Below are positions 27,790-35,721 of a DNA stretch of 64,000 nt, one piece after another. This DNA is from Oligoflexales bacterium. GTDB lineage: Bacteria; Bdellovibrionota_B; Oligoflexia; Oligoflexales; RGVZ01. Each line of letters begins with the position of its first letter. The stretch's first letter is position 1. Below the pieces are notes generated by a model. The model was given only the letters and a program-made list of their open reading frames with translations, searched no databases and was not told the origin of the DNA. The stretch is taken from contig CANLUT010000002.1 in NCBI GenBank assembly GCA_947494335.1, positions 124,001-188,000 of the forward strand. Direction: 5' to 3'. The translations under genes were made by a program, and so were the position numbers.

Positions 27790-29856
27790 ATGAATGCAAA
27801 AGAAATTATATCGACAGTCAAAGGCGGAGGTTTTGATAAACAGTACGCCGAGCTTCATTGGAGCGGATCCTTTGAAGACTATCTGAACATGGTCATCGAA
27901 CACCCTCAAATTGCACGTACAGCATTCCAAAGAATGTATGACATGATTGCAAGCTACGGTAGCAGGCAATTTAAAGAGTACAAAAAGGAAATTACTCATT
28001 GGAATTTCTTCGATGATCCAATTGAAAACGGCAAAGACGCCATATTCGGTCTCGATGTTCACCTCATGAAACTAGTGAACACGATCAAGGCTGCGGCCGC
28101 AGGTTATGGGCCTGAAAAACGCGTTATTCTTCTGCACGGACCTGTAGGCTCCTCGAAGTCAACGATTGCTCGCCTCTTGAAAAAAGGTCTCGAAACTTAT
28201 TCGCGGACTCCTGAAGGAGCAATGTACACCTACACATGGGTCAACCTCGCTGAAGTATTGAAAATGGAAGACACCATGCGCTCACCCATGAATCAAGACC
28301 CACTGTACTTGATTCCACCAGAGCGTCGCGATGCTGTGATGGCCGTCATCAACAAGGGCCGTGATCGCTCAGCGCAGGTTAGGATGGAAGGAGATCTTTC
28401 TCCAGCATGTCGGTATGTCTACACGGAGCTCATGCGTTACTACCAAGGTGACTGGGAAAAAATCATTCACAATCACATCACAGTCCATCGTCTCATCCTC
28501 AGTGAGCGAGACCGTATCGGGATCGGCACGTTCCAACCTAAAGACGAGAAAAACCAGGACAGCACCGAACTCACCGGTGACATTAACTACCGAAAGATCG
28601 CTGAGTATGGATCTGACTCAGATCCTCGAGCATTTAACTTCGACGGAGAATTCAACATCGCCAATCGCGGCATGATTGAGTTCATTGAGGTACTCAAACT
28701 TGACGTTGCATTCCTCTACGACCTACTGACTGCCAGCCAAGAGCACAAGATCAAGCCAAAAAAGTTTGCTCAGTGTGACATCGATGAAGTGATTATTGGT
28801 CATACGAATGAGCCAGAATACAAAAAACTTCAAAGCAATGAGTTCATGGAAGCCCTTCGCGATCGTACAGTCAAAATCGACGTCCCATACATCACAAAGC
28901 TGAAGGAAGAAGTTCGCATCTACGAGAAAAGCTTTAATGCTAACACAGTCCCGCACATTCACATTGCGCCGCACACTCTCGAAATGTCAGCCATGTGGGC
29001 CGTCTTAACGCGCCTTGAGGAGCCCAAAAAAGCAAACCTTACGTTGATGCAGAAGCTCAAGCTTTATAACGGGAAAACCACACAGCAATTCACAGAGGAC
29101 AACGTCAAAGAGCTTCGCAAAGAGGCCGTTCGCGAAGGTCTTGATGGAATCTCTCCTCGCTATATCCAAGACAAAATTTCCTCTGGTCTTGTTCTCGACA
29201 AAGGCAAGGGCTGCATCAATCCATTCATTGTTTTAAATGAAATGGAATCTGGACTCAAAGCCCACTCACTTATCAATGACGAAGAACTTCGCAAGCGCTA
29301 TAGGGAACTCTTAAGTGAAGTTAAGCGCGAGTATGAAGACATCGTCAAGCACGAGGTTCAGCGCGCAATTTCTGCGGACGAAAATGCGATCGACAAGCTT
29401 TGTGGAAACTACATTGATAACATCAAGGCTTACATTCAGCGCGAAAAGGTCAAAAATCCCTTTACATCTCAGGCTGAAGATCCAGATGAACGTCTCATGA
29501 GATCGATTGAAGAGAAAATCGACATCTCTGAAAACCGCAAAGACGATTTCCGCAGGGAAATCATGAACTACATCGGCGCCATGGCGATTGAAGGCAAAAC
29601 GTTTGACTTTAGAAGTAACGAGCGCCTGCACAAAGCCTTAGAGCTCAAGCTTTTTGAGGATCAAAAAGATACCATTAAGCTAACTGTCCATGTATCCAAA
29701 GTTGTCGACAAGGAAGCTCAAGCCAAAATTGATGTCGTCAAAAACCGACTGATCAAAAACTATGGTTACTGCGATATCTGTGCAAGTGATGCACTCGGAT
29801 TTGTTGCGAGTATTTTTGCCCGCGGCGACATGCTAAAAGACAAAGATCGAAGTTAA
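27790..29856 (+). CDS. prkA: PrkA family serine protein kinase
   Basis: 688 residues. The N-terminal AAA-type domain has Walker [21 protein letters not shown] at about 115-135, and the C-terminal half is the PrkA-specific region ([20 protein letters not shown]). PrkA/YeaG is a stress-linked protein; in Escherichia coli it acts with YeaH during nitrogen starvation, and in Bacillus it is tied to sporulation. The next genes, yeaH and spoVR, form the classic three-gene set. A good sigma-70 promoter and AAGGAGG precede it. Confidence 0.96.
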
Positions 29857-29880: not shown

Positions 29881-30996
29881 ATGCCAAACAACATGGAATC
29901 GGACCTCAACCGATTCCGAAAAATTGTGAGAGGCAAAATCAAGCAGGAGCTGAGACGCTTCGTTGCTAATGGTGAACTTATTGGTCGCCAAGGCAAGAAG
30001 CTGGTCAGCATTCCTCTTCCTCGCATTGATTTGCCGCGCTTTCAGTTTGGCAGTGGCGACGGTGGCGGCGTAGGGCAGGGCAAAGGCGATGTTGGGGACG
30101 AGGTCGGACAAGGTCAAGGTGAGCCACAGCCTGGACAAGGTGAAGCAGGGCAGGGGGAAGGCCAGCATGCTCTAGAGGTCGAAGTTTCCTTGGAGGAACT
30201 TGCGTCTCTTCTTAGCGAAGAGTTAGAGCTGCCCAATATTGAGAACAAGGGCAAAAAAAACGTAGACAGCAAGCACTACAAATACACTGGTATCGTGACC
30301 CAGGGCCCAGAATCTCTGCGACACTTCAAGAAAACATACCGGGAAGCCTTAAAGCGAACGATTGCCAGTGGCAAGTATGACCCCAAAAATCCGATTGTTG
30401 TGCCGATCAAAGACGACAAACGCTACCGAAGTTTTAAAGTATACAATGAGCCTGTCGCCAACGCTGTCATCATCTACATGATGGACGTCTCCGGGTCGAT
30501 GGGAGACGAACAAAAAGAGATCGTTCGTCTTACAAGCTTTTGGCTAGATACGTGGCTACAAAGTCAGTACACGGGACTTGATCGTCGTTATATTATTCAC
30601 GATGCAACAGCGCGCGAGGTCGATCAAAACACTTTTTATCGGACACGCGAGTCTGGCGGTACATTGATCAGTTCCGCGTACCGTCTTGCCTTGAAAATGA
30701 TGGAGGATGATTACCCCGTCGACGAGTGGAATATTTATCTTTTTCACTTCTCCGACGGTGACAACTGGTCGGGCAATGATACTAACGAGTGTATGAAAAT
30801 GCTTGAGGCAGACATCATGCCTAAAGCAAATTTATTTTGTTATGGCCAAGTTGAAAGTAGATATGGATCGGGTCAGTTCTTGAGAGACCTCCAAAAGCAT
30901 TTCGGCGAGGACAACAATAAACTGACGCTTTCACAAATTAAAGACCGCGACGCTATCATGGATGCTCTGAAAATTTTCTTGGGCAAAGGAAAGTGA
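29881..30996 (+). CDS. yeaH: YeaH/DUF444 family protein
   Basis: 371 residues, slightly shorter than Escherichia coli YeaH. After an N-terminal basic part it has a Gly/Gln-rich linker (about 58-98, repeats of GQG and GEG), then [20 protein letters not shown] and a von Willebrand A-like domain with MIDAS-type [32 protein letters not shown] and [19 protein letters not shown]. YeaH is the partner of PrkA. It lies 24 bases after prkA and two bases before spoVR. Confidence 0.95.
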
Positions 30997-30997
30997 C

Positions 30998-32491
30998 ATG
31001 TACGTCAACACCAAACTTCCCCCAGATCTAGCAGATACTGTTGCCCATCTTGAAGAGGTGGCGCGCAATGCGGGCCTTGATTTCTTTCCAACGATCTTTG
31101 AGCTTGTTGACTATAACCAACTTTCCGAAATCGCCTCTTACGGCGGGTTCCCCACACGCTACCCGCACTGGAAGTTTGGGATGGAGTACGACAAGCTTTC
31201 AAAAAGCTATGAGTATGGTCTAAGTATTATTTATGAAATGGTGATTAACAATAACCCATGCTATGCGTATCTACTTCGCGCTAATAGCATGGTGTTCCAA
31301 AAGACTGTAATCGCTCACGTCTATGGTCACTGTGATTTCTTCAAAAATAATTACTACTTTTCCCGCACTAATCGAAAAATGCTCGATCAGATGGCCAACC
31401 ATGCAACCTTCGTGCGTAGAGCTATCAATGAAATTGGCCAGGACACAGTCGAAACATTTTTAGATACATGCTTAAGCATTGAAAACCTGATCGATATAAC
31501 CGCACCCTATAGATCTCCAGCTTCAGCTCCGGTCAAAGACAGTCTTGGAATCGACTCCGCAGTCCATGTCCCCAAAATTGAAACAAAGGGTTACCTGGAC
31601 TCCTACATCAATCCAAAGGACTTCATGGCCGCACAAAAAGATCGCCTGGAGAAGGAGCAGCAAAAGTCAAAGAGCTTCCCAGAAAATCCAGAGCGCGATG
31701 TGCTCAAGTTCCTGATCGATAACGCACCCGTTGCAGGATGGCAGAAAAGGATATTGGAGATCATTCGCGATGAGGCTTATTACTTTGCGCCGCAAGGGCA
31801 GACGAAAATCATGAATGAAGGATGGGCCACCTACTGGCACAGCATGATGATGACAAAACTTAGCCCTCTCGATGAGAGCGAGATCGTCGACTACTGCGAT
31901 CACTATGCCGGAGTCGTAGCCGCCGCCCCAGGCTCGATCAACCCATATAAAATTGGCGTTGAACTGCTTCGTCACATCGAGCGCAGATGGGACCGGGGGC
32001 AGTATGGGCTGGATTATTTAAATTGCGACGACCCCAAAACCCGAGCCGAATGGGACACCAAAGCCGGTCTTGGAAGAAAAAAAATCTTCGAGGTGCGGAG
32101 GTTTCACAACGACTTGACATTCATCGATGAATTCATGGATGAAGACTTTTGCCACGAGCACAAGCTGTTTTTGTACGATTTTGACAAGAGAACCGGCAAA
32201 TACTCTATATCAAGTCGGGAGTTCAAACCCATTAAGCAAAAACTTCTTCAGCAGCTGACCAACTTTGGGCAACCAATTATTGCTGTTGTAGACGGCAACT
32301 TTAAAAACAGAGGCGAGCTGCTTCTGCGTCACGAACACAACGGAACCGATCTCAAGCAAGATTTCACCATGGAAACATTGCGAAATATTCATCGAGTTTG
32401 GACCAGACCGGTTTATTTGGAAACAGTCATTGAGGATGTTAAACGAAGAGTATCATTTGATGGGAAGAGTCATGATATCGAAAAAATTTAA
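30998..32491 (+). CDS. spoVR: SpoVR family protein
   Basis: 497 residues, the usual length. Family motifs: FEVDYNQLSEIASYG-like region (FELVDYNQLSEIASYGGFP), VIAHVYGHCDFFKNNYYFSR, PERDVLKFLIDNAP and IMNEGWATYWHSMMMTKL with metal-type His and Glu residues. SpoVR acts in spore cortex formation in Bacillus and is co-regulated with prkA-yeaH in many non-spore formers. The start ATG 30998 follows the yeaH stop immediately. The downstream FlgT-like gene overlaps its end by 20 bases. Confidence 0.96.
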   Translation: MYVNTKLPPDLADTVAHLEEVARNAGLDFFPTIFELVDYNQLSEIASYGGFPTRYPHWKFGMEYDKLSKSYEYGLSIIYEMVINNNPCYAYLLRANSMVFQKTVIAHVYGHCDFFKNNYYFSRTNRKMLDQMANHATFVRRAINEIGQDTVETFLDTCLSIENLIDITAPYRSPASAPVKDSLGIDSAVHVPKIETKGYLDSYINPKDFMAAQKDRLEKEQQKSKSFPENPERDVLKFLIDNAPVAGWQKRILEIIRDEAYYFAPQGQTKIMNEGWATYWHSMMMTKLSPLDESEIVDYCDHYAGVVAAAPGSINPYKIGVELLRHIERRWDRGQYGLDYLNCDDPKTRAEWDTKAGLGRKKIFEVRRFHNDLTFIDEFMDEDFCHEHKLFLYDFDKRTGKYSISSREFKPIKQKLLQQLTNFGQPIIAVVDGNFKNRGELLLRHEHNGTDLKQDFTMETLRNIHRVWTRPVYLETVIEDVKRRVSFDGKSHDIEKI

Positions 32492-34232
32492 AGCATTCCT
32501 TATCGTCTGCCTGACAGCGCTCATTGGTGCAGCATCATCTGCGCTCGCACAAGGCAATCAAAGTAGCGCATCACAACTGCCGATCTTACATTATGCCGGC
32601 GTTATCCCGGTGCAGTGGGATAAGTCAGAAGCTTGGGGTGATCTTAGCCACCTCAAAAAATCTCTGGGCGGTGAGTTTTCTGACGCAGTACGTCAAAGCA
32701 AGCGTTTTGTTGTTCTAAACGATGACTTGGTAGCCACGCTTTGGAAAAGTGCCGCTGGCCGCAAAGAGCTCGAGAAAGATTATGAGCTGAGTGTTTATGC
32801 CAGCCTTGATGTCAGCGCCAGAGGAGACATGGTTATCTTGACCGCACGGCTTCTATCCCCATCTCTTCAGACAAGACTTCAGGAGAGCGATGTGCTATCG
32901 CGAAGGTCTCTGTCGGAATTAACACGCGAACAGTCCTCGGCCCGTCTATATGATCTTGTCATGCGCATGATTAATCGACTCCCTGTTGACGCGCATATCA
33001 TGAGCGTTAATGGTAGCTATGTCACATTGTCAGGAGGCTCTGATCAGGGCGTCAGGATTGGTAGTCAATTTGATGTTCACACGGCCACAGTCGAGAGTCT
33101 CCATCCCGCCAATGGCAGCTGGTTGTCATTCGCAAGTATAAAAACAGGACGCATTGAGATTATTGAGGTCAAAAAGCAGAGCTCAATCGGAAAAATTTCA
33201 TCTCTCGTCCACGACAATTCGATAAAGCCTGGGCACGGTGTCGTGATTGAGGCCATTTCTGGCAGAAGCCGATTTGCCAGAGCTGAGGAGAAAAGTGCTA
33301 TGGCTTCCGCCAAAGACTCAGACAGCGGCGTCATCGCGCAAGAGGCCCCCAAAGATACCGCACCAGCTGTTGTAAAATCGCCTGAAAAGCCTTCCGCGGC
33401 TGAAGCGTCGCCCGAAAAGAACAAAGCTCCATCGAAGCCCGATGAGCAGCTAGCTGCGCCACAGGAAAAGGAGAACGCTGAGCAGGCGCCCGTTCCTGCA
33501 GATACACAAAAAACTGCAGAGAAACCTGCTAGCGATGAAGCTCCAGAAACAGACAACTTTACGGCTAGGCTCATTCCCAAAGGCAGCGAACTAAGAACCT
33601 GGATTGGAATGAAGATGTGGTCTATTTCTGGGTCTTCAAGCGCGGCCGCACAACTTCCACCGTGGATCGTCAACTCGGCGGGCGGATCAGTTCACAGAAA
33701 GTTCTCTGACACAATTGATTGGAGTTACGGTCTAGACATTGGATTTGGGCCTACCGGTAAAGGAAGCTTCTTCGCGTATGATCTTCATGCATCTGGGCGT
33801 TGGCATTTATATCAAAAAGACATTCTACCCGGTGCAGATGACATATTCTTTGGATTGAACACCTCCTTGATTAGCACCCAAGTCAGCAAGGAAACTAGTG
33901 GTGGTTACGATATGACTATGGTGACCCTCAACATCGGCGTTCATGGCTGGGCTAAGCCTGAATTTATTGGCGACAAGATTGAGTGGACTGGAGAGATTTT
34001 TTATCCGCTCTACGTCTCCGGCCGTTTTGGTGTGCGCGGCTTCCGTCGCAACATCGAGACTGGTTCCAGCACCTCGTTCAAACTCGGCTCTTACGTAGGA
34101 GAGCGCCCTGAAGTAGGGTGGCAGTACGGAGCCGCTATCGAGTATGAATCCAGCGCATGGGACCTTACAAAATCTAAAACAGCCAAAGTAGGTTCCATGG
34201 GACTCATGGCTCTGGCGAGACGAAATATTTAA
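32472..34232 (+). CDS. Exported FlgT-like protein with C-terminal barrel-like domain
   Basis: 586 residues from ATG 32472, just behind GGGAAGAG; the frame is open upstream but this start gives a clean signal peptide (FKAFLIVCLTALIGAASSAL, cut near ALAQ). The first 270 residues resemble FlgT/TolB-type folds: an N-terminal alpha/beta part, then NGSYVTLSGGSDQGVRIGSQ FDV, a motif like the FlgT C-terminal domain. A Pro/Ala/Glu-rich linker (about 285-370) joins a C-terminal beta-rich domain of 200 residues ending KVGSMGLMALARRNI, probably an outer-membrane barrel. Overlap with spoVR implies co-expression with the stress operon. Exact role unknown. Confidence 0.8.
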   Translation: MISKKFKAFLIVCLTALIGAASSALAQGNQSSASQLPILHYAGVIPVQWDKSEAWGDLSHLKKSLGGEFSDAVRQSKRFVVLNDDLVATLWKSAAGRKELEKDYELSVYASLDVSARGDMVILTARLLSPSLQTRLQESDVLSRRSLSELTREQSSARLYDLVMRMINRLPVDAHIMSVNGSYVTLSGGSDQGVRIGSQFDVHTATVESLHPANGSWLSFASIKTGRIEIIEVKKQSSIGKISSLVHDNSIKPGHGVVIEAISGRSRFARAEEKSAMASAKDSDSGVIAQEAPKDTAPAVVKSPEKPSAAEASPEKNKAPSKPDEQLAAPQEKENAEQAPVPADTQKTAEKPASDEAPETDNFTARLIPKGSELRTWIGMKMWSISGSSSAAAQLPPWIVNSAGGSVHRKFSDTIDWSYGLDIGFGPTGKGSFFAYDLHASGRWHLYQKDILPGADDIFFGLNTSLISTQVSKETSGGYDMTMVTLNIGVHGWAKPEFIGDKIEWTGEIFYPLYVSGRFGVRGFRRNIETGSSTSFKLGSYVGERPEVGWQYGAAIEYESSAWDLTKSKTAKVGSMGLMALARRNI

Positions 34233-34266: not shown

Positions 34267-34905
34267 ATGTCTTTAAGGTTTGTTGTCACTTTTTATGTCC
34301 TTTTATCGATGAGTTGCTGCAAGTCAACGGCCGCGGCAAAATCAGGCGAGCTGTCAGGAGCTGACGAAAAAGCTCAGAAAATTATGGTTCAAGGCTATGA
34401 CCTGTCTGGTCTTCAAACGCTAGAAGCCGCGCGCAAAGATATGATTTGTACGACCGTACTTCGACCTGAAGAGGCCGCTTGCCAAGCTGCGCGCGGCAAG
34501 ACTATTTGGGCGGATAAGTGCAAGCCCCTGTGCTCCCTGCCAATTGCCCCAAAGGGCAAAGTTGCTGGCTATAATTTCAGTTCATTTGTGATCGCAGAGG
34601 CCTTGGCTCCGGACATGGTTTGTGCTGCAGTTGTTTCAGCGGAGGAAGAGGCTTGCTTTGAACGAGGCGGGAAAACTCAGGTCGCAGCAAAATGTAAGCA
34701 TCTTTGCTCTTTGCCAATTGCTAGTGAGGGAAAAATCTCAGGATTTAATTTTAATGGCCCAAAACTTAATGTCGCGCCACTTCCAAAGGGCACAATGTGT
34801 ACCCAAGTCGTTCGACCCGAAGAAGAGGCATGCAGGAAAGCTGGTGGGAAAACCCTCATGGCCGAAAAATGCGAGGCCTTATGCACTGTGATCATCAACA
34901 AGTAG
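34267..34905 (+). CDS. Cysteine-rich triple-repeat exported protein, unknown function
   Basis: 212 residues from ATG 34267, eight bases after GGAGG at 34254-34258. A short hydrophobic start ending LLSMSCCKST suggests an imperfect lipobox. The rest is three tandem repeats of about 57 residues, near 41-95, 96-152 and 153-212. Each has the same four cysteines in the pattern MxC, EEeAC, KC, LC (DMICTTVLRPEEAACQ; DMVCAAVVSAEEEACF; GTMCTQVVRPEEEACR) with GGKTxxAeKCxxLCsLPIA between units. Two disulphides per unit would fit a small rigid periplasmic module. I do not recognise the family. A strong terminator follows. Confidence 0.85.
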   Translation: MSLRFVVTFYVLLSMSCCKSTAAAKSGELSGADEKAQKIMVQGYDLSGLQTLEAARKDMICTTVLRPEEAACQAARGKTIWADKCKPLCSLPIAPKGKVAGYNFSSFVIAEALAPDMVCAAVVSAEEEACFERGGKTQVAAKCKHLCSLPIASEGKISGFNFNGPKLNVAPLPKGTMCTQVVRPEEEACRKAGGKTLMAEKCEALCTVIINK

Positions 34906-34980: not shown

Positions 34981-35721
34981 TTATTGGGCTAAAATTCTTG
35001 ATATCGAACCATCTTCAGTAACGACGAGACATGACGGTTCATCCCAACTCGACACACTGAGCATACGTTTTCCATCACCTAAGTCCTCATCGTAAGGATG
35101 ATGGAAGTGTCCAAAAATAATCACATCACCACCGGCGGCGACCAACTGCTGTTTTGCGCATGATCCGATCAACTCGTGTCGAAGCACGCGGTATTTGTCT
35201 TTTTTTCTAGATGTTGTTGCAAACCAAAGAGTGAATTGATCAAGAAGCCACTGCGGGACACAGAAAGCCACAAAACTGACAAGCCAGCTTCTTATAAGCG
35301 CTCTAAATAGCTCATATTTGAAATCCTTTTGCAGCAGGTCGCCGTGAGCGATCAGGAATTTTTTCCCTTGGGGACTCATCCAAACTCGTCCGTGACTCGG
35401 GACTACATCGAAACGAAACTTTTTTTGAACTGAGTCCATGCCAAATTCATGGTTACCTTCGACAAACCAAACCAATGCGCCACTTGCGGCCAACTTGTCT
35501 AAACCATGAAGTAGCCGCGAATACTTGTTTTGGAAATATGATCCCCAACCAAAGAAGAAATCAAAAATGTCGCCATTCAATACAAGTGTCTTGGTCTTCT
35601 TCTCGGCGGCTAATTCCACTAATTGACAAAGCAACAGGTAACGCTCGTCCGTTTCTGTTCTCACGTGGACATCACTGGCGACAACCAATGCTGGATTTTC
35701 AGGAAGTTGAAACGTCTTCAA
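34981..35721 (-). CDS. LpxH-like UDP-2,3-diacylglucosamine pyrophosphatase / metallophosphoesterase
   Basis: 246 residues. Calcineurin-type metal motifs are all visible: VVASDVHVRTETDERYL (D-x-H), TLVLNGDIFDFFFGWG (GD), WFVEGNHEFGM (GNHE/D), FLIAHGDLLQKD (H-GD) and IIFGHFHHPYDEDLG (GHxH). The size and the GDIFDFF form suit LpxH, which removes UMP from UDP-2,3-diacylglucosamine in lipid A synthesis on the inner face of the inner membrane. Specificity cannot be fixed by eye because other small phosphoesterases share these motifs. It ends 30 bases from the shared terminator and is divergent from the outer-membrane protein gene. Confidence 0.82.
   Translation of the reverse strand: MKTFQLPENPALVVASDVHVRTETDERYLLLCQLVELAAEKKTKTLVLNGDIFDFFFGWGSYFQNKYSRLLHGLDKLAASGALVWFVEGNHEFGMDSVQKKFRFDVVPSHGRVWMSPQGKKFLIAHGDLLQKDFKYELFRALIRSWLVSFVAFCVPQWLLDQFTLWFATTSRKKDKYRVLRHELIGSCAKQQLVAAGGDVIIFGHFHHPYDEDLGDGKRMLSVSSWDEPSCLVVTEDGSISRILAQ

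Follow-up and report, generated by a model that had tools for sequence, protein, structure and literature searches.

Our analysis of a 64,000-nucleotide stretch of the Oligoflexales contig CANLUT010000002.1 (here referred to as the window) revealed a small gene whose product, P0001, carries three tandem cysteine-rich units, and comparison with other genomes placed these units in a domain family that is uncatalogued in the libraries searched. With a probability of about 0.4, P0001 represents a lipid-anchored three-unit member of this disulphide-rich family whose units serve as non-enzymatic binding heads in the envelope; within this explanation, the data establish the units and the family, unit counts that vary, the lipobox pattern, a cysteine pair jointly missing from one subclade, purifying selection and a confident model of a single unit, and we infer the disulphides and their pairing, the envelope location, the binding role and the ligand. 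The family itself is a real one, yet of a familiar general kind.

The features of the locus are listed in Table 1. Counted from its ATG codon, which is preceded at a distance of approximately 9 nt by the sequence GGAGG, P0001 comprises 212 amino acids; an alternative open TTG start lies 15 nt upstream. Two of its 14 cysteines (residues 17 and 18) fall in the signal region, and the remaining 12 are distributed over the units at positions 61/72/85/89, 119/130/143/147 and 178/189/202/206, with an identical C-x10-C-x12-C-x3-C spacing in all three. Sliding the mature protein against itself by 58 residues yielded 41 identities, whereas none of 2000 shuffles exceeded 22 at any offset from 40 to 79, which places the repeat structure far above chance. 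The preliminary description of a small exported protein with three four-cysteine tandem units was thus borne out by the open reading frame, the hydrophobic N terminus and the shuffle test. Its unit length of 57 residues was wrong, as the period is 58 and then 59 residues, and the GGKT..A.KC..LC.LPIA pattern it regarded as shared is not uniform: 'GGKT' reads 'RGKT' in unit 1, and the 'CSLPIA' ending reads 'CTVIIN' in unit 3. The repeats were not found as direct repeats in the DNA, and the duplications thus appear to be of old date.

Table 1. Features of the P0001 locus (window coordinates)
Feature	Position	Strand	Basis or remark
prkA	27790-29856	+	Pfam and NCBIfam matches
DUF444 (YhbH) gene	29881-30996	+	Pfam and NCBIfam matches
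spoVR	30998-32491	+	Pfam and NCBIfam matches
Gene for 585-aa exported protein, outside the family	32475-34232	+	Ends 34 nt 5' of the P0001 gene
P0001 gene, three-unit 212-aa protein	34267-34905	+	Open reading frame and translation; stop codon included
Putative signal region, residues 1-18, ending LSMSCC	34267-34320	+	Hydrophobic N terminus; lipobox pattern test
Unit 1, four cysteines	34384-34551	+	Profile match
Unit 2, four cysteines, unit used for structure model	34558-34722	+	Profile match
Unit 3, four cysteines, divergent C-terminal end	34732-34902	+	Profile match
Terminator-like hairpin 3' of the P0001 gene	34927-34951	+	11 pairs, then T-rich tail
Calcineurin-like phosphoesterase gene, converging	34981-35721	-	Resembles LpxH, below family cut-off

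P0001 is probably an exported, lipid-anchored protein, as judged from its N terminus. It passes the lipobox pattern, in the form that we take to be that of PROSITE, with the sequence LSMSC, although the residue ahead of the cysteine pair is not of the commonest kind. The same pattern was met by 19 of the 25 family proteins tested, P0001 included. The six failures were L004, an over-long open reading frame of which the first 75 residues alone were examined; L003, L056 and L064, which have near-lipobox sequences; and the G004 proteins L010 and L039, which are devoid of a lipobox and resemble ordinary secreted proteins. Bacterial lipoproteins in general share the lipobox pattern with P0001, a likeness that speaks to anchoring alone, but no known lipoprotein family in Pfam or NCBIfam matches the protein.

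Searches of P0001 against described families supported its characterization as unlike any known repeat. Neither the whole protein nor its single units matched any Pfam family or PDB sequence, the whole protein matched no NCBIfam family and no PADLOC entry, and PHROGs returned one match with an E value of 0.25. When the 21 units of profile set A2 were each scanned separately against Pfam and NCBIfam, isolated weak matches appeared, the best having E values of 0.0055 in Pfam and 0.13 in NCBIfam, each for one member. The A2 profile gave weak matches in PDB, the best with an E value of 0.12; a resemblance to hepatocyte growth factor activator at this value was rejected. A clear match to a described domain, named at the outset as the result that would speak against novelty, thus did not occur in any of these libraries, and the available portions of the open-licence literature on cysteine-rich proteins and lipoproteins of Oligoflexales, Oligoflexia and Bdellovibrio describe no such domain. 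A mobile origin was rejected as well, since the units had no pattern match in viral contigs and no tblastn match in plasmids or phages.

A search with the single P0001 protein retrieved relatives in genomes G002 (E value of 2.6e-46), G035 (1.3e-22) and G005 (1.5e-17), along with seven further genomes of the same order at E values of 1e-4 to 0.02 that were later shown to carry the domain. Relatives with different unit counts had been proposed as a check, and the unit counts of the proteins found cover every number from one to four. The G002 orthologue contains two units and has the same flanking genes as in the window, the G035 relative has three units and an additional cysteine-rich N-terminal part, and the G005 relative has one unit. 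One-unit proteins of 117 to 165 amino acids occur in genus g9, and L053 is a two-unit protein. Widened profiles added a pair of one-unit genes located on the same G004 contig, a C-terminal unit in proteins of 245 and 307 amino acids, and, from f11 and f3 genomes, proteins with either one unit or two. The modules also adjoin other cysteine-rich segments in longer proteins; three g9 proteins of 257 to 262 amino acids (L064, 997-1770; L066, 994-1773; L114, 1384-2172) combine an N-terminal unit with another cysteine-rich region, which is unlike the unit and is conserved in all three. The one-unit relatives L005 to L009 and L011, as well as L053 and L093, resemble P0001 in a glycine-aromatic pair near the start of the unit, a small residue before a cysteine, a glycine and an L-C-S ending, and most of them have the lipobox pattern; they differ from it in having six cysteines per unit, other unit numbers and other neighbours.

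The family profile was widened stepwise (A1, A2, A6, A7 and A8), and some of the early inclusions were weak (E values of 8e-4 to 0.012). The widening was examined with a leave-one-group-out check, in which 17 groups were omitted in turn and the left-out units alone were scanned, without decoys; E values of members already inside a profile are not independent. The best unit per group was recovered with E values of 1.7e-16 to 1.9e-4 for a notional 40,000 sequences, and the weakest single unit was unit 1 of G246 (6.6e-4). The window and G002 units scored 1.5e-13 to 7e-11 with a profile from which they were removed and in which the other four-cysteine units were kept. Furthermore, G026, G019, G246, G042 and G028 were first detected by profiles not containing them, with E values of 1.2e-6 or better. 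Among the remaining candidates, L012, L014, L016 and L017 from the first single-protein search and L061 from a later one were inspected and dismissed, the former four as chance matches; L013, L015 and L018 to L020 were dismissed on their E values (0.07 to 0.72), and L035, L040, L044, L062 and L065 from later searches were set aside as weak. A match in the window's own genome (G000:C1:710552), a 36-aa frame with an E value of 0.06, was also set aside.

A census with profile A8 at an E value of at most 0.001 yielded 38 matches in 20 of the 58 genomes of the phylum; it includes G016:C111, G004:C68, G023:C74 and G032:C103 at E values of 1.1e-7 to 4.6e-4, of which G032:C103 was the one inspected. 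All the carriers belong to the window's order, where the domain occurs in 20 of 43 genomes, and at the same threshold it is found in none of the 15 phylum genomes outside the order, which belong to the same class. As 23 of the 43 genomes are devoid of the domain at this threshold, the group can do without it. In a broad sample, which comprised 383 genomes, approximately 325 of them outside the phylum (383 minus 58), two such outside genomes reached the same threshold, G246 and G177, of which only G246 is convincing; the G177 match (E value of 4.7e-4) was judged to be chance because only 29 of the 57 profile positions match. The G246 gene (L093, 436-1692) encodes a four-unit, 418-aa lipoprotein-like protein, and its presence in a genome of another phylum may reflect shared ancestry, transfer or contig contamination. 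In a sample of 386 genomes centred on G246, which overlaps the broad sample, G246 itself was the single positive, and one of the two genomes examined from its phylum carries the domain. When the public genome collection was searched with a nucleotide pattern that reproduces the window-type spacing exactly and had been adjusted on known loci, six contigs matched, all from genomes already detected (G027, G023, G005, G002, G038 and G035).

Comparison of 34 units showed that the usual form of the family has six cysteines per unit (24 units; nine have four and one has eight). C2, C3 and C6 are invariant across the units compared, the C3-C4 spacing is 9 residues in 23 of the 24 six-cysteine units, and C4, C5 and C6 lie close together near the end of the unit, as C-x(1-3)-C-x(2-4)-C, in all 24. 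The C2-C3 segment is the most variable part, with lengths of 10 to 28 residues. Conservation in at least 45 % of the 34 units is limited to the cysteines, glycines, an aromatic residue, Ala, Leu, Pro and a Ser that directly follows C6 in 30 of them; no His, Asp, Glu or Lys is among these residues.

The nine four-cysteine units (three in the window, two in G002, three in G035 and one in G005), all of which are devoid of C4, form one group in a tree of 29 units with a support of 98/94. This group was recovered again with 34 units when the C1 and C4 columns were left out (support 85/89; 90% of 200 bootstrap trees). The single group points to a joint loss of C1 and C4, which probably occurred once, and such a single event is merely suggestive of a C1-C4 disulphide. 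Since the P0001 units fit the profile in spite of having four cysteines, membership follows from the profile and we call the window type a derived subclade; its four-cysteine form appears to have arisen from the six-cysteine form. The earlier proposal of a new disulphide-rich periplasmic or surface module therefore stands insofar as an uncatalogued exported cysteine-rich module recurs in relatives, and needs amending in that four cysteines are the exception. Within the group, unit 1 of the window clusters with unit 1 of G002 and with G005, and unit 2 with unit 2 of G002, and the three G035 units form a cluster of their own, a sign that units may have multiplied separately in G035. The deeper forks of the tree are unreliable because of few columns and several long branches. 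For units 1 and 2 of the window and G002, dN was 0.27 to 0.29 and dS, near saturation, 1.4 to 2.1, and the resulting ratios of 0.13 to 0.20 indicate that P0001 is under purifying selection.

A model of a single unit (window unit 2, 12-row alignment) predicted a beta-beta-alpha-beta-beta arrangement with a mean pLDDT of 85.2 and a pTM of 0.64, in which, by alignment, the C1 and C4 columns map to residues 15 and 45, each within a predicted strand. The full-length model, built on a four-row alignment, was poor (mean pLDDT of 46.9), with a predicted secondary structure that repeats three times. The best Foldseek matches of the unit model (E values of 6.3 in PDB and 2.6 among viral models) were treated as noise, and VIA-align returned none at Z of at least 2 among the 21 chains offered; small domains are easily missed.

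As the preliminary description stated, the P0001 gene lies between a stress operon and a terminator, with prkA, the DUF444 gene and spoVR ahead and a terminator-like hairpin behind, of a kind found at two sites by the scan against 1.0 expected in shuffles. This arrangement and the intervening gene for the 585-aa protein suggest that the P0001 gene may be the last of the operon. The 585-aa protein has no Pfam or NCBIfam match, and its gene overlaps the end of spoVR; relatives of it occur in 33 of the 43 genomes of the order, and a SpoVR frame precedes its gene in the six relatives' loci examined (L076 to L081); in this order, the protein may regularly accompany the prkA-DUF444-spoVR operon. The link between P0001 and the stress operon that such a location implied was not borne out. 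A P0001-type gene is linked to prkA-spoVR in two of the six genomes of the genus (G000 and G002). In G001, G003 and G005, the 585-aa gene is directly followed by the converging phosphoesterase gene, which keeps its position after the 585-aa gene in G002 as well, and in G004 another gene follows. Elsewhere, relatives lie among unrelated genes, as judged from neighbour names assigned by eye: unit genes adjoin ung in L033, L059 and L094 and an alpha/beta-hydrolase-like gene in L053 and L055, and one lies near ftsY in L004. At all six g9 loci (L005, 1495-1848; L006 to L009; L011), a small six-cysteine lipoprotein-like gene either follows a pdh E2-like gene at a short distance or overlaps with it, an odd mix of a metabolic and an envelope gene. 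No single gene partner goes with the family.

The location in the window would suit a structural or envelope-stress lipoprotein whose modules stiffen or protect the envelope in starvation and which is co-expressed with the prkA-spoVR operon, and PMC4664914 reports a requirement for the E. coli homologue YeaG under nitrogen starvation. We consider such a role possible but unlikely, given that the linkage is confined to two of six genus genomes, that other genes follow the 585-aa gene in the remaining ones, and that relatives occupy other loci, such as those next to ung or after the pdh E2 gene. Small modules that are rich in disulphides, arranged in tandem and equipped with a single variable loop are also reminiscent of multi-headed inhibitors, and the C2-C3 segment might form the reactive-site loop of a secreted or anchored protease or lysozyme inhibitor on a disulphide scaffold. 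Kazal-type inhibitors, for instance, are built of small disulphide-locked tandem units with a variable loop, a resemblance in working principle only: no inhibitor family matched in Pfam or PDB, no Kazal profile appeared in the Pfam scans of P0001 and the A2 units up to an E value of 1, and no fold match was obtained. We regard an inhibitor as improbable.

The strong restriction to one order and the varying number of units would fit a surface lipoprotein that recognizes prey or algal cells, and an alga-killing bacterium was placed in Oligoflexales, possibly in Pseudobacteriovorax, in PMC12865303. The NCBI taxonomy lists Pseudobacteriovorax under Bdellovibrionota, Oligoflexia, Oligoflexales. The many genomes of the order without the domain argue against such a contact role, to which we assign a slim chance, smaller than that of an inhibitor. 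We rank lowest a metal- or redox-active module, in which the C4-C5-C6 cluster would bind metal or cycle as a dithiol; the cluster is present in every six-cysteine unit, yet the window subclade is devoid of C4 in all nine units and is nonetheless under purifying selection, and the cysteines of exported proteins are usually oxidized.

A binding head fits best with a likely lipid anchor, rigid repeated modules whose number varies, a set of conserved positions free of acidic and basic residues, and the lack of a constant gene partner. P0001 would be exported and then anchored by lipid at its N-terminal cysteine, displaying three rigid beta-beta-alpha-beta-beta modules with short linkers between them. 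Two disulphides would lock each module, or three in most relatives, and the variable C2-C3 segment would contact a protein or glycan, with the unit number, one to four, setting reach or avidity. We counted in favour of binding heads the lipobox in 19 of 25 proteins, the range of unit numbers, the pLDDT of 85.2 for the unit model, the set of conserved residues, the C2-C3 variation beside a nearly constant C3-C4 spacing, the modules that adjoin other cysteine-rich segments in longer proteins and the dN/dS ratio of 0.13 to 0.20, and against them the poor full-length model, the conserved Ser after C6, the two G004 relatives without a lipobox and the 23 order genomes without the domain. A bolder version would see a novel family of disulphide-locked folds, almost confined to the order, that supplies interchangeable surface recognition heads, one to four per protein, possibly for contact with prey, algal or partner cells, in which one subclade shed a disulphide while multiplying its units; we regard it as doubtful, if not quite as improbable as an inhibitor.

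The finding by itself overturns nothing, and the surprise is moderate, since new small disulphide-rich families are not rare. It does define a domain family without an entry in the searched libraries and with a testable disulphide pattern, for which a natural form without one cysteine pair is available for comparison; all 38 census matches, in 20 of 58 genomes, would receive an annotation from a curated model. What makes the case tidy and testable is the combination of a graded unit number, a paired cysteine loss and a restriction by lineage. To our knowledge, few envelope proteins from this order have been studied, and the family would provide a way into the surface biology of these relatives of predatory bacteria.
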